A stretch of 23,101 bases of DNA from a virus (IMGVR_UViG_3300030333_005575:21515-44615); one strand, 5' to 3'. Shown: positions 1-23,096, counted from the stretch's first letter. The notes: a model not told the origin generated them from the letters alone. Program-made: numbers and translations.

Positions 1-3000
1 ACGTCAATGCGTAATGCATTTCGGGCAATGGGTGATTTTAATTTTGTAGAAGCAGGCATCGATAGCTTTAATGCTCTCTTTTTTGAGCAAGGAGCCACTC
101 CAGAGGCCCATACTGATCATGAACAATTCATGGTGTGGGGAGAGGGGTTTGATCCAGAAGCGCCAGGCCCAATTGCAGAAAATGAAACATATCAATCTCC
201 CACGCTAGATGAGTATGCAGAAATGCTTCTCTCCAACTCTACGAGGGCATTTGACGCAGAAACAAGAAACGAAGCATTTAAATATTTAAATAAGTATCTG
301 GGAGCGCAGGAGCAAATAAAGCCAGAGGACTTGTTTGTTCAGTCCGAAAACGTAACCAGTGCTGGCGGAAAGCTTGCTACGCAGTTGCTTCAACTGACCA
401 CCCTTCTTCCAACGGTCCCGGTTTCTGGCTTTTTGGCCGCCACCCAAGGGAGAGCTAGAAACAGAGGTGAGGTCACCGGAGATGTTAATTACGCAAACAT
501 ACTTAATGCAGAGCAAGCAAACCAAGTAATTGATTTAAGAGGAGCGTCATTAAACGCAGACCCTAAATCTGTAGAGGCGCAGAAAGTCCGAGTGTACGAG
601 GATGCCTTGGCAATAATGAGGGACCCTAATGTTGCGGCCTCTCGGCCAGCAGGAATGTTTGGCCTCTATGCTCGTCTAGGAGGGCGTTCCTACAACCCTG
701 TGTTTTCAAAAGGGGTGGGCAGTGACTTGCCGTCAGACGTGACAGACCGCGAAGTCAAAATGATGCCTTCTGACATTGAGTACATCCTAGACCCAAAGAA
801 TTTAATTCCTTACCAAAAGGGCCTTTGGGAGCACATCAATAAAGTGTACGACGAGCGAGTTGTTGCAAAGCTTGCTGGATCAGAACTTGACCCATCTGAC
901 CTCCCTGCAGATTGGCGAGGCAGTTTATTTAGAGGCGGAAGAGGCACTACTTTATCGCCAGCAAACATGCCTTACCCAGACTCTCCATACTGGAGCAAAG
1001 AAGCTATTTTTGAAAGGCTAAAACTTTCATCAGCTTTAAGTTGGGTAGACGCGATAGACCCAGATAATGCAGATAGCCTCTTCCTTCAAGGCTACCGCCC
1101 AATTAGGCCCCCCAAGGAAGGCTGGGCGATGCAAAAAGCTCAAGACGACGCTAAGGAAGAGTGGTTAAAATACCAACGAGGTGAATCTGCAGGCGCTCCG
1201 TGGACAGGGGAAGATTCGCATTTCTCAACGAGCATATCGGAGAGAAACCCGTGGTCGCTTAAAAATGAGCTTCGTGAGCATACTTACAGAAAGGCATTAA
1301 AAATTAGTTCAGAGCGAATTGGAAAAGCTGCGAAGGCTGGAGCCTTTGGACAGGCGTTCCAAAACGAAGCCGGGGTAATTATGGCCCAGGTGTTCACAGA
1401 AATTGCCACCCGGCAACACGCTTCTGAGTTTGATACAGTTGTTGGAGAGTATACCCAGCGAATGGCAGAGTCTATGAGCCCTGAGATGATGTGGCATGAC
1501 TTTACCCTTTCTTTTGCAGGGGCGACTGGCATTGGAGACCCAAAGCTAGTAGCGGAAGGAAAAGAGTTTTGGAATAATTACCCGCTCTTTGGTGTCCTTA
1601 ATGTCGCCATGGGGTCTGCTGGCATTTCAAAGCTTGCAGTAAAACCCGCTATAAAGCATGGGGTCACCACAGTGGGTGCTGCGATAGAGGCAAGCCCTGC
1701 GCTTCAAAAAGTATCACAAGCCTTTGAATTATTTAAAGAGGGAGATGTCGCTGGCGCTAAAGCTCTTTATGTAGAGGGGATGACTGAGTACAAAGCGCAG
1801 TACAAAACCGCAAAAGAAGTTCAAATGGAAGCGTTTAAAGACGCGGAGAAATTAGCAAGCAGCCCTATTAGCAGGAAAAAGGAAGCCGCTGCTAGTTTAG
1901 ACAGTCCAGAGAATGTAATTCGCATTAGTGGGGATGACGTACAGCCCACAATAAACCAAAAGCGAAGAGAAGCCCAAGAGTTTGAGGCGAAAGCAGATGA
2001 GCTTGCAGAGGCAAATGATCCTACTGCGCGTGCGTATAGAGACAAGGCGCAGTTTGCTCGAGATGTGGCAGATGCTCTCGAGGTAGGCCTAAAAGAAGAG
2101 CTTCAAATAAAATCTCAGCAGGCTGGGGAATCCCCAAGAAGAACTCCGTCTCCAGAAGAATTCCAGAGAAGGGAAGAAATTGCTGCTGATATTAGTGAGA
2201 AGGCTGCAAAGAAAGGTACGGTTGGTCTCACAAAGCTCAGAGAGGCCCTAAAGGTCTTTTGGAATACAGACCATCCCAACAATCGCAAACTGCTTGCCCA
2301 TCTCCGCACAGACGCAGAGGCAGCAAAAGATTACGCTCGAAGAATAGCTGCTACTGGCGAAACAGATGTCAGGGTGTACCTTGAACTGCTTGGCGAGTCT
2401 GAAGCAGCTTTAATTCAAGACCTCGTGTATCGAGCAGAAAACGCTCCGGTCTCTAAGAATTTACGGACTGTCCTTGATGAGATGGCCGCAAAGAATAATA
2501 CGACGCCAGAGGCTTTGATGGCGCAACAAAACCGCCTAAGCACTGCGGAGCAGCTTGCACATCGAGGGGAAAAGAACGCGGCTGTTTATGAGGCCCTTGG
2601 TATTTCAGACAATTACATAGATTATTTTGTAAACATGGCAGAGAGGAGAAGTGCCTCCAAAGCGTACGTCACCTCAAGAGTGTTTGGGGATGGCTTAGAG
2701 CTTACCATTAAAAATGCTCCCCACAGAGGTCGTTTTCAAACTGGAATTATCGGTGCCGCGCAAGTTGCAAGAAGAAATATTCTAGGAGAAAAGGCAGATG
2801 CCCTTGTGTCTGCGGCTTCAAAAAACAATCGCGCTGTTAATTATGGGTTGGCAGTTGCTGAGTTTATGGAAAGGCCTTTTTCTTTTGCAAATATACCAAG
2901 CTGGTATTCGGACGTAGTTAATTACGGGCTGCACCACCAAATTGCAAAGAATCACCAAAGCGGTTTTGGAAGATTTCTCGAGCACCTTTTTATGTATTCC

Positions 3001-6000
3001 GCCACAAACAGCAGTCTTTTGGGACGAGATGTCTACCATCAAATACAGCGAGCCGGTGGCGTTGAGCAATTGGCAAAGGCGGACATTGAGGCCGCTACAA
3101 AAGAATTGCTTGGGGGGGATTTTGATCTAAGGAATGCGGATGTTGCAAATGCTCTAAGGGAGCTTGGCATCTTTTCTGAGGAGTTTGGAACTGAAGGAGA
3201 GCTTTTGCAAGGCCTTACGACCTTGGCTGAAGATCAATTCCAGTTTGCAGCAGAGTTAATTCATCGCGGCCTTGCTGGCGAAAAGATTGACGTTGGTGGC
3301 CTTTCTATTGACGTTGCTGACGTAATGCGCCTTCAGGTAAAGCGTAAGAAAGATAAGGACAGTCCTGGCGTTTGGGAAGACGCGATTGATAAGCGTGGGC
3401 GCATGGAAGAAATCAAAACCCGCAAGGGGGAGATAGACGCCACGCTACAAGACCAACTAACCAAGAAAGAAATTGAAGACTCCGTTTCTTTAGACCCCAA
3501 AGATGTCGCAAAGATTGAAGACTTGCAACTGCGACTACAAAAACAAAAAAGCCCAGAAGAGATTGCAGCCCTTAAACAAGAACGTGATGCTCTTATTGCT
3601 GAAGAGAAGGACATTAGGTCCATTACTCAACAAGATGCCCTTGAGGGTGTAGAGTCCATTCGATGGGTACCTGCTTTAGATGAAAATGGAAACCAAAGAA
3701 CGTATGCCTCTATGGGTCCAAAAGAGCGGGAAATGCTTGCTGTGGCCAACAACACGGTGCAGGGAATATCCAGTAAGATCTTTTCTGTAGGAATGGATTT
3801 CATTCTTGGGCAGCAGGCTCTTGATATTTCAATTCAAAGCGCACGGCCAAAAGGCGTCATTGTCAGAGACATGGACGTTGTTTCGACTCGCGGCACCTGG
3901 GACCGAAAAGAAGTGCCTAGTCGGAGAAAGAAATATAAAGTTCTCCGTGACTTTGGAGACACAAAGCAGGCCCAGGAAAGAGCGGCCCGTGTGGCGGCTG
4001 CTATTAACGAGCTAACCCATGGCAGAGAAATGCCGCAGGGAATAAGTGCGGCAGACCAGAAGTTTGTTCGGGCAACTGTAAAAGAGCTTGGGGAAAATGA
4101 AAAGGTTTCCACACAGACAAGACAGCAGTACGAAAATCATACTCGTGTTGTAGGAGAAAGCCCACTTAAATTCCAAGGGTACGAAGTCATTCCTCGTCTT
4201 GTTAACTATGTAAGCTCTTACTTCTTGAGAGAGGCTGAGGCTGGCCACATCACTAGGCTTCTTGGGGACTATAAAAAATGGCTAGATGATGAGAAGGCAG
4301 GAAAGCCCTTTGAGGAAAGGCGCGGGATTAGCCCAGAGCAGTACAAGGTTCAGGTTTCCGCTGTTGCTCAGAAATATCTGCAGCTATTCCCAGACCAGAA
4401 AAAAGTGCAGGAGTTTGTAGATAAAAAGAACGGAAAGGGTACGTTTAAAACCAACCCGGTAAAAGCTCTTGAAACATTAATGGATGCGGCCAAGGAAACC
4501 CTTGATCAAAACGGCATTGTCATGCAGGGAGACGCACGGTTTTTTAAAACAAGACTGTGGGCAAAAGACCTTTCTTTTGAACAGCAATTAGAAAGCCTTG
4601 CAAGCTACAGAGAGTCTGCAACCAGAACGTATGTAGGGCTAGTTCAAAGAAGAGAAGTTCTTCGACTCCAAACAATGCTCAGGGAAAATGGGCTTTTGGT
4701 ATCTGATTACGAATTAGACACCAACCCAGGTTTAAATCGAAATTCATACGTTAAAGGAGATGCAATTCCTTTGCCGAGAATGGCGGAATTGGGGCTGCTT
4801 TGGAAGAACCCGTTTGAGGTAAAGACAAAAGAGCGAAAGGTTGGCGATAAAACAGTTCGATACCAGCGACCAGGACTAAAAGATGCCGAGACCGTTCAGG
4901 CGGGTGGCGTTATGTCCGACTTCTACATTCACAAAAGTGTAGCGAGGTATTACGCACAGCAGCATGTGCTTGTAAAAGCCCAAGAAAGTGCGCTGGTTAA
5001 GCTAAACAATATGTACAAGATTGGTGCTGTTGTAAACCCAATCACAGGTACAATGGTCCGAAACTTAATTGGTATGTACACCTTCCAGTCTGTTGCTGCA
5101 GACATCCCGTTTCGAGGAACGTACTGGAGAAAAGTGCATAATGAGTTGAAAAAGGTTCGGGCTGGGGACAAAAGCGCAGACCCTGTTATTCGACGAATGG
5201 TTGAAGAGGGCGTGCTTGGAAATCTAATTGTAGAGCTTGGGGATTCAGGGGCAGCGAGAGCAGCTACGGAGTCTTTCCTTGTAGACGTTTTTGCAGGCAA
5301 AGACAACAAGGGCACTGTAGGGGAGTTTATGGACTCCTTGGACTCCACTGACCTTAATAACCGCGCTATGGGCAAATTGCTGGATGGCCTTATGGGGTCA
5401 GATCAGGCATGGAATGGTCTGGCAGATAACATTAGTTTGATTAGAGCAACGGATGATGCCGCCCGTCCGGGGCAAATTCCAAAAAGGGAAAATCTTTTTG
5501 AGGTTCCTAACATCCCTCGCGCAATTAGTGCTTCTCTTAGGAAAGGGCGTCAGGCATATGGCTCCATCGATGACATTGGACGTGCAGCGTATGCGTATGA
5601 GCTTGTGAAGAACCATAATTTCACAGTTCGAGATGCCGTAATCCGGGCAAACCAAGTTATGTTTGATTACCCAGATGTCAGCATGTTCACTGCAATGCTT
5701 CGGACGAATCCGTTTTCTTTTGGAATGCCTTTTATTGGCTACACTGTTTGGGCAAATGAAGCGTTTGCAAATCTTTTGACCAAGCACACTCCTCGAGCAT
5801 ACATGATCGCAGGCGCTGCAAAGGCGCAGATTGCTGTGGTCGAGGCTATGCTTGGAACTCCTGACGCAACGCGAATGTTTGCCAGCACAGAGTATGACCC
5901 CGGAGCACTTCCTATGCCTGCGTATAAAATACAAAAGGCTAAAGGGTATGCAAAAAGAAGACTAAAGGGCAAAAGAGACGAATATGTTGGCGGCCCTGAG

Positions 6001-7302
6001 TTTATGAGAGGGTCTCAATTTAGCGCCTTCATGGATCCAAATGTGTGGCGTCGAATACAAATGGCTGAAACCAGGAGCATGGAAGACCTGTCCATGCTAG
6101 AAAAGCTTAAGTACACAGGGGCGGCGCTTTTAGGATCACAAGGGTTTACAGGAGAAGCCGCATCAAGCCTTCTCTTGCCATCTGTCAGAGACAACCCAAG
6201 GGCAAGCGACCTGGAGCAAATAAGCCGAGCCAAATTGTCCGTCAGGCTGGACAACATTAAAGAAGACGGCTACGAGGATGCCAATGCGGTTGTCCCAGAA
6301 GCGGGAGACATTGCAGAGCGCCGAGCATGGCAAAACCTGATAAAACACCAGCCTTATTTTAACGCTGCTATCAGAGGCCTTGTTGGTATTTACAGTGCCG
6401 CAACAGGCGAGGACACCCTCGGGATGGGAGCTACCGGAAGAGATGTTATTCAGAAGTTTCTGGGTATATCTACAACTCTCTATGACGAAAGATTTAAATC
6501 CGTGTTGCAGGAAGAGGGTCGAGCAGAGCTTTCAAACTTAAAGGCGGCGTACAAAGGTTTGATTGAAATGGGCAAGCGCCTAGATATAGAGAACAGAGCC
6601 GGTGTTCGCAATGAGGCTCAGATAAAAATGGTTAATAATTATGCAAACCACGTCTATAACTCAATAAGCAAAATCAAAGGAAATAAAAACGCAGTAAAGG
6701 CTAGCCATCGAATTAAAGTCCAGGCCCATTTGGATAAGATGCAAGTGTACTTAAAGGCGCTTGTGTTGGGGCAGGACATTAGCTTGGCCGAGTACGAGGC
6801 CAGCCCATTTGGAGGCCCAGAGTTTTCTCTTCCGTCTCCAGCGCCAACCTTTGATGATATGGATGTTGCCCCTCCGACCGAAATTGAGTCTTCTCGCTCT
6901 TTGCTGGAAGAACACAAAGAAGTTCCTTTTGTAAAGCGGATGTTAGACCCAGGGTCGTACCCGGTTGCAAGAGATGAGGCCGGAAACCCTATGACGCATT
7001 TAATGTCCGACGCAGAGGTTGAGGGAAGGTTTATTGCTTTTCCAACATTGCGCTTTGACGGCAATACGCTGGTTGAGGATACAGACCCGATGACTGCGAT
7101 CAAGTCGGGGAATTTTATTGAGTTTGACACGCCAGAAGAAGCTTCAGCGTTTGCTCGTGGCTCTTGGAAAAAAGGTGTGGGCATGGGTGTTTTTAAGAGC
7201 CCTGCTGATGATGACATTGAATTTAACGACGAGGAACTAACTCCAGAAGAGGTAGAGGAACTACGTCTGATTAAGGAGGAGTTGGGCATCGGCCCGCTGT
7301 AA
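1..7302 (+). CDS. Giant phage large polyvalent / internal virion protein (5' partial)
   Basis: This reading frame is open at the left edge. The first ATG is at 7, but codons 1-6 are in frame and no SD is visible, so the true start may lie upstream. At least 2,431 residues. Established: tailed phages carry giant, mostly helical proteins of this type as virion or ejection-associated polyvalent proteins. Seen: a charged coiled-coil-like stretch near residues 640-700 and a strong one near 1125-1215. A hydrophobic segment with an NPITGTMVRNLIG motif lies at about 1677-1689. A helical block around 1865-1930 includes FDYPDVSMFTAM and NPFSFGMPFIGY, a pattern I associate with such proteins. A compact C-terminal module at about 2305-2400 (THLMSDAEVEGRFIAFPT, then IEFDTPEEASAFARGSWKK) recurs in many phage virion proteins. 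I see no peptidase or transglycosylase active site. Inference: an internal or ejected virion protein. Virion-associated class is fairly likely; exact role unknown. Confidence 0.7.
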   Translation, partial: TSMRNAFRAMGDFNFVEAGIDSFNALFFEQGATPEAHTDHEQFMVWGEGFDPEAPGPIAENETYQSPTLDEYAEMLLSNSTRAFDAETRNEAFKYLNKYLGAQEQIKPEDLFVQSENVTSAGGKLATQLLQLTTLLPTVPVSGFLAATQGRARNRGEVTGDVNYANILNAEQANQVIDLRGASLNADPKSVEAQKVRVYEDALAIMRDPNVAASRPAGMFGLYARLGGRSYNPVFSKGVGSDLPSDVTDREVKMMPSDIEYILDPKNLIPYQKGLWEHINKVYDERVVAKLAGSELDPSDLPADWRGSLFRGGRGTTLSPANMPYPDSPYWSKEAIFERLKLSSALSWVDAIDPDNADSLFLQGYRPIRPPKEGWAMQKAQDDAKEEWLKYQRGESAGAPWTGEDSHFSTSISERNPWSLKNELREHTYRKALKISSERIGKAAKAGAFGQAFQNEAGVIMAQVFTEIATRQHASEFDTVVGEYTQRMAESMSPEMMWHDFTLSFAGATGIGDPKLVAEGKEFWNNYPLFGVLNVAMGSAGISKLAVKPAIKHGVTTVGAAIEASPALQKVSQAFELFKEGDVAGAKALYVEGMTEYKAQYKTAKEVQMEAFKDAEKLASSPISRKKEAAASLDSPENVIRISGDDVQPTINQKRREAQEFEAKADELAEANDPTARAYRDKAQFARDVADALEVGLKEELQIKSQQAGESPRRTPSPEEFQRREEIAADISEKAAKKGTVGLTKLREALKVFWNTDHPNNRKLLAHLRTDAEAAKDYARRIAATGETDVRVYLELLGESEAALIQDLVYRAENAPVSKNLRTVLDEMAAKNNTTPEALMAQQNRLSTAEQLAHRGEKNAAVYEALGISDNYIDYFVNMAERRSASKAYVTSRVFGDGLELTIKNAPHRGRFQTGIIGAAQVARRNILGEKADALVSAASKNNRAVNYGLAVAEFMERPFSFANIPSWYSDVVNYGLHHQIAKNHQSGFGRFLEHLFMYSATNSSLLGRDVYHQIQRAGGVEQLAKADIEAATKELLGGDFDLRNADVANALRELGIFSEEFGTEGELLQGLTTLAEDQFQFAAELIHRGLAGEKIDVGGLSIDVADVMRLQVKRKKDKDSPGVWEDAIDKRGRMEEIKTRKGEIDATLQDQLTKKEIEDSVSLDPKDVAKIEDLQLRLQKQKSPEEIAALKQERDALIAEEKDIRSITQQDALEGVESIRWVPALDENGNQRTYASMGPKEREMLAVANNTVQGISSKIFSVGMDFILGQQALDISIQSARPKGVIVRDMDVVSTRGTWDRKEVPSRRKKYKVLRDFGDTKQAQERAARVAAAINELTHGREMPQGISAADQKFVRATVKELGENEKVSTQTRQQYENHTRVVGESPLKFQGYEVIPRLVNYVSSYFLREAEAGHITRLLGDYKKWLDDEKAGKPFEERRGISPEQYKVQVSAVAQKYLQLFPDQKKVQEFVDKKNGKGTFKTNPVKALETLMDAAKETLDQNGIVMQGDARFFKTRLWAKDLSFEQQLESLASYRESATRTYVGLVQRREVLRLQTMLRENGLLVSDYELDTNPGLNRNSYVKGDAIPLPRMAELGLLWKNPFEVKTKERKVGDKTVRYQRPGLKDAETVQAGGVMSDFYIHKSVARYYAQQHVLVKAQESALVKLNNMYKIGAVVNPITGTMVRNLIGMYTFQSVAADIPFRGTYWRKVHNELKKVRAGDKSADPVIRRMVEEGVLGNLIVELGDSGAARAATESFLVDVFAGKDNKGTVGEFMDSLDSTDLNNRAMGKLLDGLMGSDQAWNGLADNISLIRATDDAARPGQIPKRENLFEVPNIPRAISASLRKGRQAYGSIDDIGRAAYAYELVKNHNFTVRDAVIRANQVMFDYPDVSMFTAMLRTNPFSFGMPFIGYTVWANEAFANLLTKHTPRAYMIAGAAKAQIAVVEAMLGTPDATRMFASTEYDPGALPMPAYKIQKAKGYAKRRLKGKRDEYVGGPEFMRGSQFSAFMDPNVWRRIQMAETRSMEDLSMLEKLKYTGAALLGSQGFTGEAASSLLLPSVRDNPRASDLEQISRAKLSVRLDNIKEDGYEDANAVVPEAGDIAERRAWQNLIKHQPYFNAAIRGLVGIYSAATGEDTLGMGATGRDVIQKFLGISTTLYDERFKSVLQEEGRAELSNLKAAYKGLIEMGKRLDIENRAGVRNEAQIKMVNNYANHVYNSISKIKGNKNAVKASHRIKVQAHLDKMQVYLKALVLGQDISLAEYEASPFGGPEFSLPSPAPTFDDMDVAPPTEIESSRSLLEEHKEVPFVKRMLDPGSYPVARDEAGNPMTHLMSDAEVEGRFIAFPTLRFDGNTLVEDTDPMTAIKSGNFIEFDTPEEASAFARGSWKKGVGMGVFKSPADDDIEFNDEELTPEEVEELRLIKEELGIGPL

Positions 7303-14675: not shown

Positions 14676-14860
14676 TAGAGTTCTCCTTTCTCAAGCTTGA
14701 GAAGTTCTCTTCGCAGATCTTTGTATGAGTCGCGAATTCGTACTGAAAGTTTACGTGCCCTGCGGTTGGCTGACCTATTGCCTGCCTCCGCATTGGCGAC
14801 CTCTAGCGCCAACACCTCTGCGTTAGACACCAGTTCAAAAGCCTTCTCTCGAAGCTTCAT
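14675..14860 (-). CDS. Hc1-like small basic DNA-binding protein, 61 aa
   Basis: Start chosen at ATG 14860 because AGGAGGAAGT lies directly before it; a longer frame from 14890 runs through a hairpin. All-helical, Ala/Arg/Lys-rich: NAEVLALEVANAEAGNRSAN, then RRARKLSVRIRDSYKDLRRE. The GN-x2-A-x2-RARK-x15-R spacing resembles the N-terminal domain of chlamydial histone H1-like Hc1 and its relatives. It overlaps the SSB start by 1 nt, so the two are co-translated. Inference: compaction or protection of DNA during replication. Alternative: a generic helical regulator. Confidence 0.55.
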   Translation of the reverse strand: MKLREKAFELVSNAEVLALEVANAEAGNRSANRRARKLSVRIRDSYKDLRRELLKLEKGEL

Positions 14861-14864
14861 ACTT

Positions 14865-14885
14865 CCTCCTCGTGCCCAAGGCACG
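14865..14885 (-). promoter_or_regulatory. SD-adjacent hairpin upstream of Hc1-like gene
   Basis: In the - strand RNA, CGUGCC-UUG-GGCACG (14885-14871) forms a perfect 6-bp stem with a 3-nt loop. It is followed with no gap by AGGAGG (14870-14865) and then the ATG at 14860. The upstream stop is about 7 nt before the stem. A stem stacked against the SD could tune initiation or mark a processing site. The layout matches the gaps in 19.8-22.2 kb. Confidence 0.6.
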
Positions 14886-18537: not shown

Positions 18538-18831
18538 TCACTCCCCCTGGCGGGAGAGGAACTCCTCACATCGGGCTAACTCCTCCTGGGCGCGCGCCTC
18601 CTGTCGGTTTTCGTGGTACACATCGGGGTCTTCAAAAAACAGGTTGGCGTAGTTCACAAGGCCCCAAAGCTCTTCTGATTCCTTTTCGATGCTGTTTAAC
18701 GCATCGGTAACTTCACCAATGTCTTTCTCATCCGGCTTTCCGTCAGTGCCTAGCAGAGAGCCCAGGTCAGATATTTTCTGACCAAGTGTGGCAATCTCGT
18801 CACCAATTCCAATCAAGTCTTCACCTTTCAT
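18538..18831 (-). CDS. Hypothetical acidic helical protein, 97 aa
   Basis: Strongly acidic and helical throughout: IGDEIATLGQKISDLGSLLG, DEKDIGEVTDALNSIEKESE and a C-terminal RQEARAQEELARCEEFLS. AAGGAG lies about 6 nt before the ATG. No family recognised. High acidity and small size are common among phage proteins that bind host enzymes or mimic DNA, but this is speculation. Confidence 0.55.
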   Translation of the reverse strand: MKGEDLIGIGDEIATLGQKISDLGSLLGTDGKPDEKDIGEVTDALNSIEKESEELWGLVNYANLFFEDPDVYHENRQEARAQEELARCEEFLSRQGE

Positions 18832-18840
18832 CGCGTCTCC

Positions 18841-19233
18841 TTAAAGGCTAGAAATTACATCTTCGATTCGCAGGACTGTCTGACCTGCCATCTCCATTGG
18901 TTGTTCGTACTGAGACAAGACAGGCTGTTTAGTGTCAACCTCAACACTAAAATGCGTCTCACCTCGACCATGACGTGGCTCTACTCGGATGGTGCCAGAC
19001 GAGTGCAGGCGTATCCGAGCGTTGGCAGGGTAGAAGATGGACCTATCATCTTTACCTACCCACGATGGGTCAAGGTTTCCGTAGTCATACTCAATCGCAT
19101 ACAGCCGCACCTTTGCCTTGCCCGGTACCATCACCCCGGTGGGGTTTGTGTAAACGCTATTGAGCAAAGCCACTTGCGGTATCTCATGCGTACACCATCC
19201 ATGTGCAGTCACACCCAAGTACAAGGTTTCCAT
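18841..19233 (-). CDS. Hypothetical beta-rich protein, 130 aa
   Basis: Unrecognised 130-residue protein with many short strands (KAKVRLYAIEYDYGN, ARIRLHSSGTIRVEP, ETHFSVEVDTKQPVLS) and little helix until the end (QTVLRIEDVISSL). GGAGGT precedes the ATG. It ends about 9 nt before the next gene's ATG, which holds the SD AAGGAG. No Cys motif or signal peptide; probably a small beta-barrel or sandwich in the cytoplasm. Confidence 0.55.
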   Translation of the reverse strand: METLYLGVTAHGWCTHEIPQVALLNSVYTNPTGVMVPGKAKVRLYAIEYDYGNLDPSWVGKDDRSIFYPANARIRLHSSGTIRVEPRHGRGETHFSVEVDTKQPVLSQYEQPMEMAGQTVLRIEDVISSL

Positions 19234-19246
19234 CGCTCACCTCCAC

Positions 19247-19519
19247 CTATTCGTACTCATTGTTCTCAAGCATTTCGTTAACCAAGCCCACGAACATATC
19301 CCCACACGCCTTGCCCAACTCTTTGACGCCAAGAGGCTCGCCCCATTCGGCGTCGCCATTTTCACGGATGTGAAGTAGAAACCGGCAGTGACTAAACCGT
19401 ATCTCCTCGATGTGGTTCTCCGAGTCCCTGTCCATAAGGAAATGGACGGACACGCGCCCGAGGTCTATGTCAAAGTCGATGTCCTCGGTGTGAGCTTCAA
19501 TTCGCTTGTAGTTACGCAT
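19247..19519 (-). CDS. Hypothetical protein, 90 aa
   Basis: ATG 19519 is chosen because GGGAGGT lies upstream and the ATG follows the preceding stop by 1 nt; a longer frame from 19552 would overlap that gene. Strand-rich N-terminus (DIDFDIDLGRVSVHFLMD, EEIRFSHCRFLLHIREN) and a C-terminal helix (GKACGDMFVGLVNEMLEN). Acidic. No family recognised. Confidence 0.55.
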   Translation of the reverse strand: MRNYKRIEAHTEDIDFDIDLGRVSVHFLMDRDSENHIEEIRFSHCRFLLHIRENGDAEWGEPLGVKELGKACGDMFVGLVNEMLENNEYE

Positions 19520-19520
19520 G

Positions 19521-19775
19521 TTACACCACCTCCCACGCGACAGGCTTGCCACTGCTTTCTTGGACGAACCCGCCCATCCACTCGCCTACCGCACTCGCCT
19601 CCTTAGCAAGTGGGTAAGACATCCGAGAAGTAGAACCAAAGTCATCCTCGTATTCCACTTCGTGCTCGTTGTCGAGAAAGAACTCCACGGCCTCAACCGC
19701 CTCTTCTAGACTGCTTGACTTGACTTTCACCTGAAGGTCTAGGTTGACCTGGACCACCACCGAAAACTCTTTCAT
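19521..19775 (-). CDS. Hypothetical acidic protein, 84 aa
   Basis: Beta-alpha-beta pattern at the N-terminus: EFSVVVQVNLDLQVKVKS, then SLEEAVEAVEFFLD. The stretch EHEVEYEDDFG is very acidic and GEWMGGFVQES lies near the end. This layout (two strands, helix, strand) resembles small ferredoxin-like or binding domains. AAAGGAG lies upstream in a 121-nt non-coding gap with several inverted repeats, the longest regulatory-looking gap of the early block. Confidence 0.55.
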   Translation of the reverse strand: MKEFSVVVQVNLDLQVKVKSSSLEEAVEAVEFFLDNEHEVEYEDDFGSTSRMSYPLAKEASAVGEWMGGFVQESSGKPVAWEVV

Positions 19776-19896
19776 GCCCTGACTCCTTTGCTATAGCCCG
19801 GTAAGGCTATGCTGCATTGTTATTCTCATCTCTCTCGTATTGCAAGAACTTTTTGCAATAGCCCGCCAATTGCAGCGCAGTGCGCTGGTTTTTTAT
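19776..19896 (-). promoter_or_regulatory. Inverted-repeat-rich leader of the 84-aa gene
   Basis: This gap holds three inverted repeats. AUAGCC-UUACCG-GGCUAU (19810-19793 in - strand RNA) lies 3 nt before AAAGGAG. ATTGCAA-GAACTTT-TTGCAAT (19839-19859) is a perfect 7-bp pair. CAGCG-CAGTG-CGCTG (19873-19887) is followed by six T on the + strand. I see no convincing -10/-35 pair. It could hold a protein operator or RNA processing sites. Confidence 0.5.
19873..19894 (+). terminator. Possible intrinsic terminator facing the + strand
   Basis: CAGCG-CAGTG-CGCTG (19873-19887) then G and TTTTTT (19889-19894). The U-tract follows only on the + strand, opposite to the genes, so it would stop antisense transcription into the early block. 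The stem is short and the role uncertain. Confidence 0.3.
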
Positions 19897-20028
19897 TTAC
19901 TGGATGCCCCGCAATGCGTTAAGCCACGCACTGAGAGACAGGAATACCCACCCTATGATGCCTATAGCCGCACTGGCATAGGTGAAGTGGTTCAGAGACT
20001 CGCTCACTCTGGTGATAATTCGATTCAT
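19897..20028 (-). CDS. Small membrane protein, 43 aa
   Basis: Forty-three residues: MNRIITRVSESLNHF, then a hydrophobic segment (YASAAIGIIGWVFLSLSAWL) and NALRGIQ. The ATG at 20028 is 9 nt after AGGAG. An earlier ATG (20035), only 2 nt from the SD and in another frame, would give a 38-residue Cys/His-containing peptide and is judged less likely. A short basic N-terminus before one transmembrane helix is typical of small phage membrane proteins. Function unknown. Confidence 0.5.
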   Translation of the reverse strand: MNRIITRVSESLNHFTYASAAIGIIGWVFLSLSAWLNALRGIQ

Positions 20029-20046
20029 TTTCCATCGCTCCTGTTG

Positions 20047-20105
20047 AAGTTAAGCCCCCCACAGTACCCACCACCACCAGGGTGATGAGTACAAGCAGGG
20101 TTTAA
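20047..20105 (-). promoter_or_regulatory. Structured RNA element, copy 1 (core stem 20064-20092)
   Basis: In the - strand RNA the core is GUACUCAUCACC, loop CUGGU, then GGUGGUGGGUAC: a 12-bp stem with two G-U pairs. It is flanked by GUUAA and CCC on the 5' side and GGG and UUAAC on the 3' side, which can extend the stem. It begins at the end of the 77-aa gene and precedes the SD of the 43-aa gene. It is homologous to the element at 20622-20681. Confidence 0.6.
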
Positions 20106-20335
20106 CCTCCCGCCTTCGCCTGCTTTCGATGTTCAAGGGCCTGTAGGATGCCTTCCAGTAGCATTGCAGCAGCCTCGTGTGCCTCTTCGATGCTGGCCTG
20201 CTCGATGTAGAACTGGCCGGACTGCTCAATGTAGAACTGGCCGTCAGACCCTCTCTTGAGCCGGTAACCATCCCAGCCTTGCAGCTTGTTGACTGTTTCT
20301 AGAATGTCTCTCACGACTGTCTCTCTAGCTCCCAT
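20102..20335 (-). CDS. Hypothetical helical protein with internal tandem repeat, 77 aa
   Basis: The start has GGAGGT seven nt upstream, inside the preceding gene (11-nt overlap). An 8-residue unit, GQFYIEQS then GQFYIEQA, is tandemly duplicated in the middle. It is flanked by helices (VVRDILETVNKLQGWDGY, EEAHEAAAMLLEGILQALEH). No family recognised. The duplication would lengthen a beta hairpin or linker and appears recent, since the copies differ at two of 24 bases. Confidence 0.55.
   Translation of the reverse strand: MGARETVVRDILETVNKLQGWDGYRLKRGSDGQFYIEQSGQFYIEQASIEEAHEAAAMLLEGILQALEHRKQAKAGG
20195..20242 (-). repeat. 24-nt in-frame tandem duplication
   Basis: Two adjacent 24-nt units (20195-20218 and 20219-20242) differ at two positions and encode GQFYIEQ-S/A twice in the 77-aa protein. 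The length keeps frame. Confidence 0.85.
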
Positions 20336-20603
20336 TGTTCACCTCCTGAATGCATAATGCCAACTGACACACGTTGTGGCCTGCGTCTTTACTGTTGTAG
20401 ACTGGCCAATTCGATTCGTAGTCTTGGACCGTGACCTTGAGATTTCCTTCTGGCACGTCTTTACCATCCTTCTCAATCCAAACATGGACTGTCCGGTGGT
20501 TTGCATCCGGCATGTCGTTTGTCAGAATATCTGTTAAGACATGCGCGACATACCCACCACCTAAATTGACCTTCACCTTCTTGTCTTTGATTAAAGCTCC
20601 CAT
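20325..20603 (-). CDS. Hypothetical beta-rich protein, 92 aa
   Basis: Strand-rich: KKVKVNLGGGYVAHVLTDIL, RTVHVWIEKDGKDVPEG, NLKVTVQDYESNWPVY, then a short C-terminal helix with two Cys (NVCQLALCIQEV). AAAGGAG and the shared GAGCGATGG context lie at its start. It opens with the same MGA codons as the following gene (ATGGGAGCT). It follows structured RNA element copy 2. Function unknown. Confidence 0.55.
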   Translation of the reverse strand: MGALIKDKKVKVNLGGGYVAHVLTDILTNDMPDANHRTVHVWIEKDGKDVPEGNLKVTVQDYESNWPVYNSKDAGHNVCQLALCIQEVNNGS

Positions 20604-20621
20604 CGCTCTTCTCCTTTGTTG

Positions 20622-20681
20622 GGCATTAATTCACCCACAGTACCCACCACCACGAGGGTGATGGGCACAAGTGTGAATCAA
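20622..20681 (-). promoter_or_regulatory. Structured RNA element, copy 2 (core stem 20640-20668)
   Basis: In the - strand RNA the core is GUGCCCAUCACC, loop CUCGU, then GGUGGUGGGUAC: 12 bp with two G-U pairs that would be A-C mismatches on the + strand. A basal stem of UUCAC with GUGAA closes it. It overlaps the stop of the 142-aa gene and precedes the SD of the 92-aa gene. It shares its central sequence with copy 1, while the basal stem is different but still paired. Confidence 0.65.
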
Positions 20682-21106
20682 CCGTATACAATTTCACCGA
20701 GAACACAGTACTGTAGAAACACGTTTGCAGTCTCACCGTCGTGCGTCCCCCTTAGAATGTTGTCCCAGTGTCGAGAGGGTATCCCTCCCTCGCTCCTTGG
20801 TCTGCCGGAGTCGTAGGCCAGCCTCTTGATGCCTCGCTTAATCTTACTCAGGCTCAAGGTGTAGTATCCGTCCTTTCCCGCATTACCCCAATCCGGGTCG
20901 CCTTCGGGGTCTGTGAATTTGAGCACGCCCCCAGGGTCCATTGGTACGCCTGCGGTCCAGTACTCATAGTCCGAGTATCCCTTGCCTTTGGGGAATCGGT
21001 GGACCTTTAGATCGCAGCACCAACTTTGTGCAGCACCCGAGAACGCATCCACCAACAGACCCTCAATTGTCGAATCGTCAATCTGGATTTCCATTTCAAT
21101 ACGCAT
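20678..21106 (-). CDS. Phage protein of unknown function, 142 aa
   Basis: The layout matches a recurring phage family I recognise but cannot name: an N-terminal acidic helix for the LLVDAFSGAAQSWCCD motif (often AFEGG with Trp/Tyr in relatives), a beta-rich middle (GGVLKFTDPEGDPDWG, YYTLSLSKIKRGIKRLA), and an end of HWDNILRGTHDGETANVFLQ plus YCVLGEIVYG. That conserved C-terminus with D-x-E-T-x-x-V-F-L-Q and GE-x-x-YG is diagnostic for me. No enzymatic role is known to me. AAAGGAG and a GCCC-GAA-GGGC hairpin precede the start. Confidence 0.65.
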   Translation of the reverse strand: MRIEMEIQIDDSTIEGLLVDAFSGAAQSWCCDLKVHRFPKGKGYSDYEYWTAGVPMDPGGVLKFTDPEGDPDWGNAGKDGYYTLSLSKIKRGIKRLAYDSGRPRSEGGIPSRHWDNILRGTHDGETANVFLQYCVLGEIVYG

Positions 21107-21112
21107 CGCTCT

Positions 21113-21131
21113 GCTCCTTTGCCCTTCGGGC
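21113..21131 (-). promoter_or_regulatory. Stop-hairpin-SD linker before the 142-aa gene
   Basis: In - strand RNA: upstream UAG, CA, then GCCC-GAA-GGGC (21131-21121), then AAAGGAGC (21120-21113), then the ATG at 21106. Four base pairs with a GNA triloop. The linker is nearly identical to those at 21365-21376 and 21835-21846. Confidence 0.6.
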
Positions 21132-21133
21132 TG

Positions 21134-21352
21134 CTATCGGTCAAAAATTGCTTCGCCTATCTGTGCTCGCATCTTTCGTCCGTGCTTTATCCATCGGTCC
21201 TTAACCTCTTTGCTACTCTCGGCCAGGACGAAAAATTCCGCTTGGTATCCCCCGTCCCCAACTACCCGGACGGCATAAAGGCTCGGATGACTCCATGAGT
21301 CCTCATTCGGCGGGTCCAGCGGTCCTAAATGAATAATCTTGCTAATTTCCAT
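21134..21352 (-). CDS. Hypothetical protein, 72 aa
   Basis: Seventy-two residues: a loop-rich N-terminus (MEISKIIHLGPLDPPNEDSW), two strands (YAVRVVGDGG, YQAEFFVLAESS) and a C-terminal basic helix (KEVKDRWIKHGRKMRAQIGE). A single small alpha/beta domain. The SD AAAGGAG sits between an upstream hairpin and the ATG. No family recognised. Confidence 0.55.
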   Translation of the reverse strand: MEISKIIHLGPLDPPNEDSWSHPSLYAVRVVGDGGYQAEFFVLAESSKEVKDRWIKHGRKMRAQIGEAIFDR

Positions 21353-21357
21353 CGCTA

Positions 21358-21376
21358 CTCCTTTGCCCTTCCGGGC
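21358..21376 (-). promoter_or_regulatory. Stop-hairpin-SD linker before the 72-aa gene
   Basis: Upstream UAG, CA, then GCCC-GGAA-GGGC (21376-21365), directly followed by AAAGGAG and the ATG at 21352. GGAA closed by C-G is a GNRA tetraloop, an especially stable cap. Confidence 0.6.
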
Positions 21377-21378
21377 TG

Positions 21379-21822
21379 CTAGTTGAAATTGTCTTTCTCG
21401 TACTGGTCATAAGCCACCTTGTTGCATTCAATGAGGTAGCAATACTTCCGAAATGGGTATCTAGGTTCTAAGCCCAGAGCACAATAGCGGTGCAGCTTGA
21501 TGCAAGCCTCGTGATAATTTATCGCTTCAGAATACCCTACTACTAAATCCCAGTCGTCTGTCCGCATGAGCTTTAATTGAAGCGCACCAACTCTTTCGCT
21601 GTGGTGCATAATCGCCTTGATGTGTTGGTCTGCACTAAGGTCACCGTTGTAACGCTTCCAGCTTTCAAAGCTGCTGATGTATGGCTCGAATTGCTTTTGC
21701 ATGGCTTTCTTCGCACCCTTTACCTCCAGAGCCCCATACCGCATTGCTGCCCTCCGAAGACATTCGCCATCGGGCGTATCATCCGTAAACTTTGTTGATT
21801 CCCACCGTTTTTTCTTTTCCAT
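21379..21822 (-). CDS. Hypothetical protein, 147 aa
   Basis: ATG 21822 is chosen by its SD (AAAGGAG); a longer frame from 21900 runs backward through a hairpin and into the upstream gene. All-helical and charged: MEKKKRWESTKF, ECLRRAAMRYGALEVKGAKK, QHIKAIMHHSERVGALQLKL, and a C-terminal Cys/Tyr-rich part (KYCYLIECNKVAYDQYEK). Its first codons (ATGGAAAAGAAA) are shared with the 103-aa gene. Family unknown. Confidence 0.55.
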   Translation of the reverse strand: MEKKKRWESTKFTDDTPDGECLRRAAMRYGALEVKGAKKAMQKQFEPYISSFESWKRYNGDLSADQHIKAIMHHSERVGALQLKLMRTDDWDLVVGYSEAINYHEACIKLHRYCALGLEPRYPFRKYCYLIECNKVAYDQYEKDNFN

Positions 21823-21827
21823 CGCCG

Positions 21828-21846
21828 CTCCTTTGCCCTTCCGGGC
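21828..21846 (-). promoter_or_regulatory. Stop-hairpin-SD linker before the 147-aa gene
   Basis: Upstream UAA, CA, then GCCC-GGAA-GGGC (21846-21835), directly followed by AAAGGAG and the ATG at 21822. Stem and loop are identical to 21365-21376. Confidence 0.6.
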
Positions 21847-21848
21847 TG

Positions 21849-22160
21849 TTATTCTGAAGAATAAAAGACCACAGTCACCGGGTACTGGGGGGACCCCCAC
21901 CCCGACTCAAAATCAAATCCAATTTCCTCCCAAGTCTGCGCCCCCAGATACGCATCAGAATTCCAGCCGAAGTACTCGGAAGGCAATCCCATGTCCTTCC
22001 TGCACAGATCAAAGGCGGCATGTGGATTGTGACCCAGGTAGACCGTGTTAAGTCTGGGGCTCCATCCCGTCCACTCGAATCGATAACCTCTGTCGAGCAT
22101 CTGCAGCATAAGAGTGTGTAACTCCTCCATGCTGTGAAGCGTTTTCTCTTTCTTTTCCAT
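21849..22160 (-). CDS. Hypothetical protein, 103 aa
   Basis: ATG 22160 is preferred because AAAGGAG precedes it; an in-frame ATG at 22211 lacks a good SD and would read through the hairpin. N-terminal helix (SMEELHTLMLQMLDRGYR), then aromatic strands (FEWTGWSPRLNTVYLG), a short helix (HAAFDLCRKDMG) and an aromatic C-terminus (GFDFESGWGSPQYPVTVVF). Probably one compact domain. Not recognised. Confidence 0.55.
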   Translation of the reverse strand: MEKKEKTLHSMEELHTLMLQMLDRGYRFEWTGWSPRLNTVYLGHNPHAAFDLCRKDMGLPSEYFGWNSDAYLGAQTWEEIGFDFESGWGSPQYPVTVVFYSSE

Positions 22161-22166
22161 CGCTCT

Positions 22167-22187
22167 ACTCCTTTGGTCCTGCGGACC
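22167..22187 (-). promoter_or_regulatory. SD-adjacent hairpin before the 103-aa gene
   Basis: GGUCC-GCA-GGACC (22187-22175) is immediately followed by AAAGGAG and the ATG at 22160. The stem sequence is entirely different from the neighbouring GCCC/GGGC linkers, yet geometry, GNA-type loop and distance to the SD are kept. Confidence 0.6.
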
Positions 22188-22218
22188 TATCACTTTTGTC
22201 AATCGCTCCATGGTGCCC

Positions 22219-22234
22219 CCGTCCAGACGGACGG
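22219..22234 (-). repeat. Inverted repeat downstream of the Gp88-like gene
   Basis: CCGTCC-GTCT-GGACGG in the - strand RNA, 23 nt after the Gp88-like stop. It has no U-tract, so it is unlikely to be an intrinsic terminator. It shares the 96-nt gap with the SD-adjacent hairpin. Confidence 0.5.
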
Positions 22235-22256
22235 AGACACGAGGAAGGATGGACCT

Positions 22257-23096
22257 CTACGCCGCGAATCGATGCACAAAGCCCGTCGTGTCCTTGGTAC
22301 CCCTGCCCTTGGCGGACAGGACCACGAAGGTACCTTTGCGGTCCAGGAATCGGGCATCGGTCTCGTCTCCGTCAATCACAGGGCGGCCAAAGAGGGTGCC
22401 ACGTTCAACGATAGCTTTTGCCACTCTCTTCGCGTCGTTCTTGTTCGTGCTTCCTATGGCTCCAACTACAATGGCCGCGTTCTGCCCTCGGTCAATGTAG
22501 CGTTGCGCCTCCTCTACACTGCCTACCCTCTCGGATGCGCTGAACGTCAGAGTGAAGTTTGACGCGGTCATGCGACGGCTCAAGGGTGCCTTTGTGTAAT
22601 CGTAGAACGTGACTTCTTCGTGTGCGTCGATTATGCCCGTGTCCTCCCACTTGATATCGCTCGTCCCATTGAGACGCACAGCGCACACCATGCCCGCGCG
22701 AGCGCACGCCTTAGCATGGCGTTCTATCTCATACGACAGGCGAGTCATAAAACTTTCAGGGTAGAGTAGAAACCACCACGACTTTTCGAGTTGGGCAATC
22801 TTCTGGTTTCTGCAGTTCATTTGTCCTGCATACTTCAAGCAACCCGCAACGCATCCAGGAGTGGACCACGGACACAGATTGATTCCCGAAAGGCTAGCGG
22901 GTGCCATGTACAGGATGCGCGTGCTAATTCCTACCGACTCACCCTTGTTGACCTTGTAGGAATGGCCAAGAATGTTGCGCGCCTTTCCCCGTTCGCCTTT
23001 GTACAGGGCACGGGAAAGGGCACCCTCTAAACCTTCCCAGTCGGTCACGGTCTCACCGTTGTGGTATTGGTCAAGCCAGGGGGCACGTTCTGCCAT
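22257..23096 (-). CDS. Gp88-family phage protein, 279 aa
   Basis: Recognised from conserved blocks of a widespread phage family (named after mycobacteriophage L5 gp88): YMAPASLSGINLCPWSTPGC with Cys75 and Cys82, followed by Cys86 and Cys95; AVRLNGTSDIKWED (~139-152); VTFYDYTKAPLSRR (~162-175); a Ser-rich FTLTFSASER strand; VIDGDETDARFLD; and a C-terminal VVLSAKGRGTKDTTGFVH. The Cys cluster suggests a metal site, and the evenly spaced strand-end motifs suggest a barrel fold. The biochemical function is, to my knowledge, not established. The start is 5 nt from the window edge, so its SD cannot be seen. It is the first gene seen of the - strand block. Confidence 0.8.
   Translation of the reverse strand: MAERAPWLDQYHNGETVTDWEGLEGALSRALYKGERGKARNILGHSYKVNKGESVGISTRILYMAPASLSGINLCPWSTPGCVAGCLKYAGQMNCRNQKIAQLEKSWWFLLYPESFMTRLSYEIERHAKACARAGMVCAVRLNGTSDIKWEDTGIIDAHEEVTFYDYTKAPLSRRMTASNFTLTFSASERVGSVEEAQRYIDRGQNAAIVVGAIGSTNKNDAKRVAKAIVERGTLFGRPVIDGDETDARFLDRKGTFVVLSAKGRGTKDTTGFVHRFAA

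Follow-up and report, generated by a model that had tools for sequence, protein, structure and literature searches.

Hairpins near ribosome-binding sites are a known kind of element, and several described systems can be set beside the one considered here: a series of compact hairpins in a 23,101-nt stretch of viral DNA (IMGVR_UViG_3300030333_005575:21515-44615, hereafter the window), which forms the final 23.1 kb of a virus record of 44,615 bases. The hairpins lie at the starts of small minus-strand genes, each followed by a Shine–Dalgarno (SD) sequence and an ATG. For T4, the RNA structures described at translation starts act by inhibiting initiation or as repressor-binding sites (reviewed in PMC3014915); the shared feature is phage mRNA structure near the SD altering initiation, whereas here the SD lies outside the hairpin. 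In cluster K mycobacteriophages the Start-Associated Sequence (SAS) has 13 bp of fixed sequence, GGGATAGGAGCCC, and includes the SD; the repeats of its extended form, ESAS, are 17 bp long, and the authors find little support for RNA hairpins (PMC3203893). These elements resemble ours in being repeated at many small non-structural gene starts of one phage, and about half of them have inverted repeats upstream (PMC3203893). By contrast, the window linkers read (hairpin)AAAGGAG(N5-7)ATG, and the 13-bp sequence is absent from their starts. RiboJ, with its 3' hairpin, and synthetic 5' hairpin cassettes also place a hairpin just upstream of the ribosome-binding site and have been suggested to expose that site or to stabilise the mRNA (PMC6206723, PMC6993053). 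Those hairpins are engineered, longer and left by ribozyme cleavage, whereas the ones described here are natural, have 4–6 bp and lie between phage genes.

A natural tetraloop hairpin locked to the SD and recurring in unrelated phages turned up neither in Rfam nor in the open-access journal papers searched, and with a literature search limited in this way priority cannot be claimed. Nor did the region itself match any Rfam family at the gathering score or at any value up to E=1. Hairpins of the C(UUCG)G type, short and stable, reportedly lie between genes in phage T4, although we located no text describing them. These would likewise be small stable hairpins in phage gene gaps, and UUCG loops do occur in the class described below (loci L280, L257, L263 and L271). 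They differ from ours in that the present hairpins are fixed at the edge of the SD and GNRA is their most frequent loop type; the loops in the window are GGAA, GAA, GCA, UACC and UUG, with no UUCG loop closed by C-G.

Close relatives of the phage were sought by megablast and tblastn (50,697 phage records), by IMG/VR protein scans with two early proteins and by blastp against all fetched loci, and none was found. These searches gave broad families only (Pfam GP88/phrog_1617 at no more than 40% identity over most of the length, and a DnaB-type helicase below 30%). Because no close relative was available, the interpretation was tested on the class of such hairpins outside the window.

Pairing beside the Shine–Dalgarno sequence in phages

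We scanned 2.9 million viral contigs (IMG/VR) for the pattern arm-N4-arm-AAAGGAG-N5-7-ATG in four arm combinations. Pairing arms were found in 50 contigs as GCCC/GGGC and in 25 as GGGC/GCCC, against 3 and 1 contigs with the non-pairing combinations GGGC/GGGC and GCCC/GCCC (Fisher p=3e-16, odds ratio ~417); the contigs are partly redundant, and the distinct contexts in the fetched loci number 55 and 17 for paired arms against 2 and 1 for unpaired. Away from SDs in the fetched contigs, the same four combinations occur 301, 170, 101 and 106 times, an odds ratio of 4.8. The preference for pairing is therefore much stronger beside the SD, and the swapping of arm order with pairing kept resembles, for the class as a whole, a compensatory change. 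A direct case is an orthologous linker with UCCC/GGGA in locus L159 and GCCC/GGGC in L182, in which both sides have changed and the pair is kept.

The loops are also biased. Among SD-adjacent hairpins 21/96 (22%) have GNRA loops, compared with 25/406 (6%) of the same hairpins elsewhere and 3% expected by chance; GNRA and UNCG loops together account for 26/96 and 36/406, respectively (p=8e-6). In 5-bp hairpins, GNRA loops make up 9.3% in leaders and 3.7% elsewhere. Because pairing is favoured in either arm order and the loops are biased to stable tetraloops, it is the transcript's fold that is preserved. As to position, in SD sites that were not selected on the pattern, tetraloop stems peak 0–1 nt before the SD, with 12 and 19 cases compared with about 7 at other distances. 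Selection on RNA pairing beside the SD is thus well supported for phages as a class.

L280 and its relative L257 carry tandem hairpins before several small genes, GCCCC-GNRA-GGGGC or GCCC-UUCG-GGGC together with GGGC-GNRA-GCCC, with GCAA, GAAA, GAGA or UUCG as loops; the small genes concerned adjoin an Erf-type recombinase gene (L280 7300-8800, plus strand; L257 5440-7000 in minus-strand numbering). L263 and L271 have GGGC-UUCG-GCCC, L206 uses GAAA and GCAA loops, and a single contig, L187, has at least six hairpins of differing sequence at starts. An identical 30-nt stretch spanning hairpin and SD precedes unrelated, non-orthologous genes in L196 and L182, and the gene of L182 that corresponds to the L196 one has no such hairpin, which suggests that linkers were moved or remade, or that they are points of recombination.

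Two other IMG/VR contigs contain the exact 19-mer GCCCGGAAGGGCAAAGGAG, in both cases a few nucleotides 5' of an ATG. The looser pattern GCCCN4GGGCAAAGGAG is present in at least 119 viral contigs, and 87/121 (72%) among the matches listed precede a start. A general bacterial element was rejected: AGCCCNNNNGGGCAAAGGAGG has 48 matches in 257 Gb of bacterial genomes, close to a rough chance estimate of ~30, and a minority of them lie before starts.

Hairpin linkers of the window

The initial annotation described a common layout before five small genes, with an upstream stop, a compact hairpin, AAAGGAG and then ATG. The hairpin, SD and ATG are present in all five cases on the minus strand, with every hairpin ending 0–3 nt 5' of AAAGGAG and pair probabilities of 0.96–1.00 in local folding. 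An adjacent stop accompanies only the three GCCC copies. In the first of these, GCCC-GGAA-GGGC (21835-21846), TAA 21849-21851 lies 2 nt upstream and the hairpin abuts the SD at 21828-21834, with ATG 21820-21822. The linker at 21365-21376 is a near-identical repeat of it, with the same hairpin, TAG 21379-21381 2 nt upstream, an abutting SD at 21358-21364 and ATG 21350-21352. In the third copy, GCCC-GAA-GGGC (21121-21131), TAG 21134-21136 is again 2 nt upstream, and the SD (21114-21120) again abuts the hairpin and is followed by ATG 21104-21106.

The other two hairpins lack an adjacent stop because the preceding genes end at 22257 and 19897. GGTCC-GCA-GGACC (22175-22187, pair probability 0.96) abuts the SD at 22168-22174, with ATG 22158-22160; an alternative in-frame ATG at 22209-22211 would place this hairpin within the gene. 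Between that alternative ATG and the end of the preceding, GP88-type gene lies a long minus-strand hairpin, GTGTCTCCGTCC-GTCT-GGACGGGGGCAC (22213-22240, -21.4 kcal/mol). GC-ATAGCCT-TACC-GGGCTAT-(A)-GC (19790-19812), some 85 nt from the end of its upstream gene, abuts the SD at 19783-19789 (ATG 19773-19775), contact being made solely by a 2-bp extension that contains a bulged A. A sixth example, outside the range considered initially and missed there, is CGTGCC-TTG-GGCACG (14871-14885, minus strand), with TAA 14892-14894 across a 6-nt gap, the SD AGGAGG and ATG 14858-14860. All six sites have the defining feature of the class, a perfect stem of at least 4 bp ending 0–3 nt before a strong SD. 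The overlapping genes at 17–19 kb have no comparable hairpin before them, as had been reported.

Differing stems with retained pairing at the same place had been taken to argue for selection on RNA structure. The stems are indeed present and paired, but the three GCCC/GGGC copies are one duplicated linker: they sit in a direct repeat of 20–36 nt with 90–92% identity, one duplicate having its loop changed from GGAA to GAA. Being duplicated, they are not independent evidence of covariation, and the linkers of the window have spread partly through duplication. We assessed chance occurrence with a Watson–Crick stem of at least 4 bp, at least 3 of them GC, and a loop of 3–6, ending 0–3 nt from the position. 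Such a stem is found at 2.5% of random minus-strand positions and at 5/9 SD sites (p ~1e-6), or at 3/7 once the duplicates are merged (p ~5e-4).

The window could in principle hold one chance hairpin whose linker was copied twice and two coincidental ones, as the direct repeats and the lack of a relative to confirm the sites would allow. This is very improbable given that the merged-copy value is still low, that there is a sixth case at 14871-14885 and that the class is under selection in other phages. Selection on RNA structure is thus strongly supported for phages generally, whereas the argument from the window is weaker than had been claimed, because its five stems include three duplicates and there is no close relative in which to compare the exact sites; selection on pairing beside the SD is probable in this window.

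Two long extended hairpins on the minus strand are additions to the initial annotation. Hairpin A (20625-20682) starts at the upstream gene's stop, TGA 20678-20680, and ends 7 nt before the SD AAAGGAG at 20611-20617; hairpin B (20046-20109) starts at the stop TAA 20102-20104 and ends 3 nt before the SD AGGAG at 20038-20042. Their cores are 87% identical, and their outer stems differ in sequence with pairing present in both. These different yet paired outer stems give the strongest indication from the window itself that structure has been retained.

Minus-strand genes extend from ~10.2 kb to the right end of the window, in the order DnaB-type helicase, single-strand binding protein, PD-(D/E)XK/Cas4-type nuclease and then many small genes. 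The small right-end genes read leftwards from 23 kb, many of them have no family match, and to judge from their location they may be early genes. Directly 5' of many start codons at 18831-22160 (minus strand) stands GCG (GAGCGATG, GGCGATG, ACGCGATG), at starts with a hairpin or none, and these look as if the entire start context had been copied from gene to gene. The stretch 19831-19895 contains a terminator-like hairpin on the plus strand (19873-19887, CAGCGCA-GTG-CGCTG region, then TTTTTT) next to an inverted repeat, TATTGCAA-AAAGTTC-TTGCAATA; the two may be an antisense terminator and an operator. On the plus strand, a 2,431-codon gene (7-7302) has no PHROG match.

Possible roles of the hairpins

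Transcription termination is disfavoured, since no terminator-like site was found on the minus strand at the hairpins, where AAAGGAG and not a U run follows the stems. Copies of the 19-mer in two unrelated loci, L082 and L081, bear on the remaining roles. Both are promoter-proximal (sigma-70 promoter match 12/12 in L082 and 11/12 in L081), with ~15–20 nt from the expected transcription start to the hairpin and no gene between promoter and hairpin. Without an upstream gene, these copies disfavour any role that always requires an upstream ribosome, including the proposed blocking of ribosome read-in as a general function. Downstream genes of known family often encode abundant virion proteins or their partners (scaffold, major head, major tail, head protease), with controls more mixed, and boosting is therefore favoured over blocking. 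Among the other roles put forward initially, RNA processing, stabilisation and the tuning of gene dosage are still candidates.

The same promoter-proximal copies count against the idea that the hairpins act on ribosomes finishing the upstream gene, by filling the gap after the stop, halting sliding or shortening the path to re-initiation. This idea would account for the stops at or within 2 nt of the hairpin in three of the five window linkers and both long hairpins, for the lack of hairpins at overlapping genes, and for the enrichment across phages of a stop within 6 nt upstream (15% of hairpin sites and 8% of other SD sites, p=0.02). That enrichment is only twofold, however, and two window linkers have no adjacent stop, so we regard such a role as unlikely.

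We place the action of the hairpin, by inference, at initiation or at the 5' side of the message. Our preferred reading, held tentatively, is of a boundary immediately upstream of the SD with an insulating or a stabilising effect. A GC hairpin that is compact and often has a stable loop, set against the 5' edge of a small phage gene's strong SD would provide a fixed structured boundary, which may shield the initiation site from its upstream surroundings and guard the 5' side of the translated unit. Each cassette-like gene would thereby have its own start context.

Several observations weigh against this boundary. When the hairpin was forbidden by constraint in folding, with the sequence unchanged, median SD accessibility was 0.69, compared with 0.66 for the native fold and 0.58 for hairpin-free controls (p=0.48 against controls). 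The hairpin thus does not raise predicted SD accessibility, no effect through static folding is seen, and the suggestion that it exposes the SD is unsupported, the effect being inconsistent. Across 76 phage loci with a GP88-type gene there is no excess of hairpins at SDs, and hairpin linkers are a minority of phage starts.

The hairpins might instead mark RNA ends, processed or native 5', and guard each small gene's message from decay, with the position of the SD incidental. RiboJ and synthetic 5' hairpin cassettes are reported to lengthen mRNA half-life (PMC6206723, PMC6993053), and GNRA and UUCG caps are consistent with stability. Stabilisation would not need the tight 0–1 nt spacing to the SD, however, and 4-bp stems are short barriers, which makes this explanation improbable.

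A separate set of hairpins was seen in leaders of scaffold-type genes that had been fetched without selection on structure (L283-L294; phages PS-1, X2_24, Mcat6, Tbat2_3, AUS531phi, Pmp13, Ssp-JY42, Ftm, ST405-OXA48phi1.3, R656, TCUAN1 and HK639). Each of the 12 leaders has between one and three short hairpins, whose loops are GGAU or GGAA, with one AGAU, and whose stems vary freely yet pair; GGAU/GGAA-loop hairpins number 18, compared with 0.28 in shuffles, and none of the leader hairpins matches Rfam. They could be a scaffold-protein operator or a CsrA-type site.

The presence of this class in 12/12 cultured phages, together with GGAA in two window loops, gives some grounds for a further proposal, that the loops are bound by a repressor such as CsrA/RsmA or a protein of the phage, which would make its second contact at the SD. 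CsrA/RsmA sites have GGA in the loop and usually a second GGA at the SD. In the window 2/5 loops contain GGA, the remaining window loops being GAA, GCA, UACC and UUG; L206, L280 and L257 use GAAA, GCAA, GAGA and UUCG, none with GGA; and GGA-loop hairpins are barely enriched in leaders (1.9% compared with 1.4%). On loop composition, CsrA-type GGA loops were rejected as a general explanation, and repressor binding at the loops seems very unlikely. The structured boundary remains the reading we prefer, and re-initiation is less likely than it.

Small hairpins in phage operons

Unrelated phages may have converged on one module, a stable-loop hairpin of 4–6 bp at the SD edge, sometimes doubled, that would serve as a portable insulator or enhancer, duplicated and moved with the start site; we put this forward a little more cautiously than the boundary itself. 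Phage operons contain small genes by the dozen, whose protein levels must be set separately on a shared mRNA. A natural part as small as a recurring 12-nt hairpin next to the SD could serve this end very cheaply; it would be directly testable in reporters and the natural counterpart of engineered insulators. SD-side hairpins would also be useful as an annotation cue for the true starts of small phage genes, and the arm-swap count makes selection on tiny RNA folds measurable across metaviromes where alignment is impossible. The class suggests a simple, overlooked way of setting off one gene's translation from the next.

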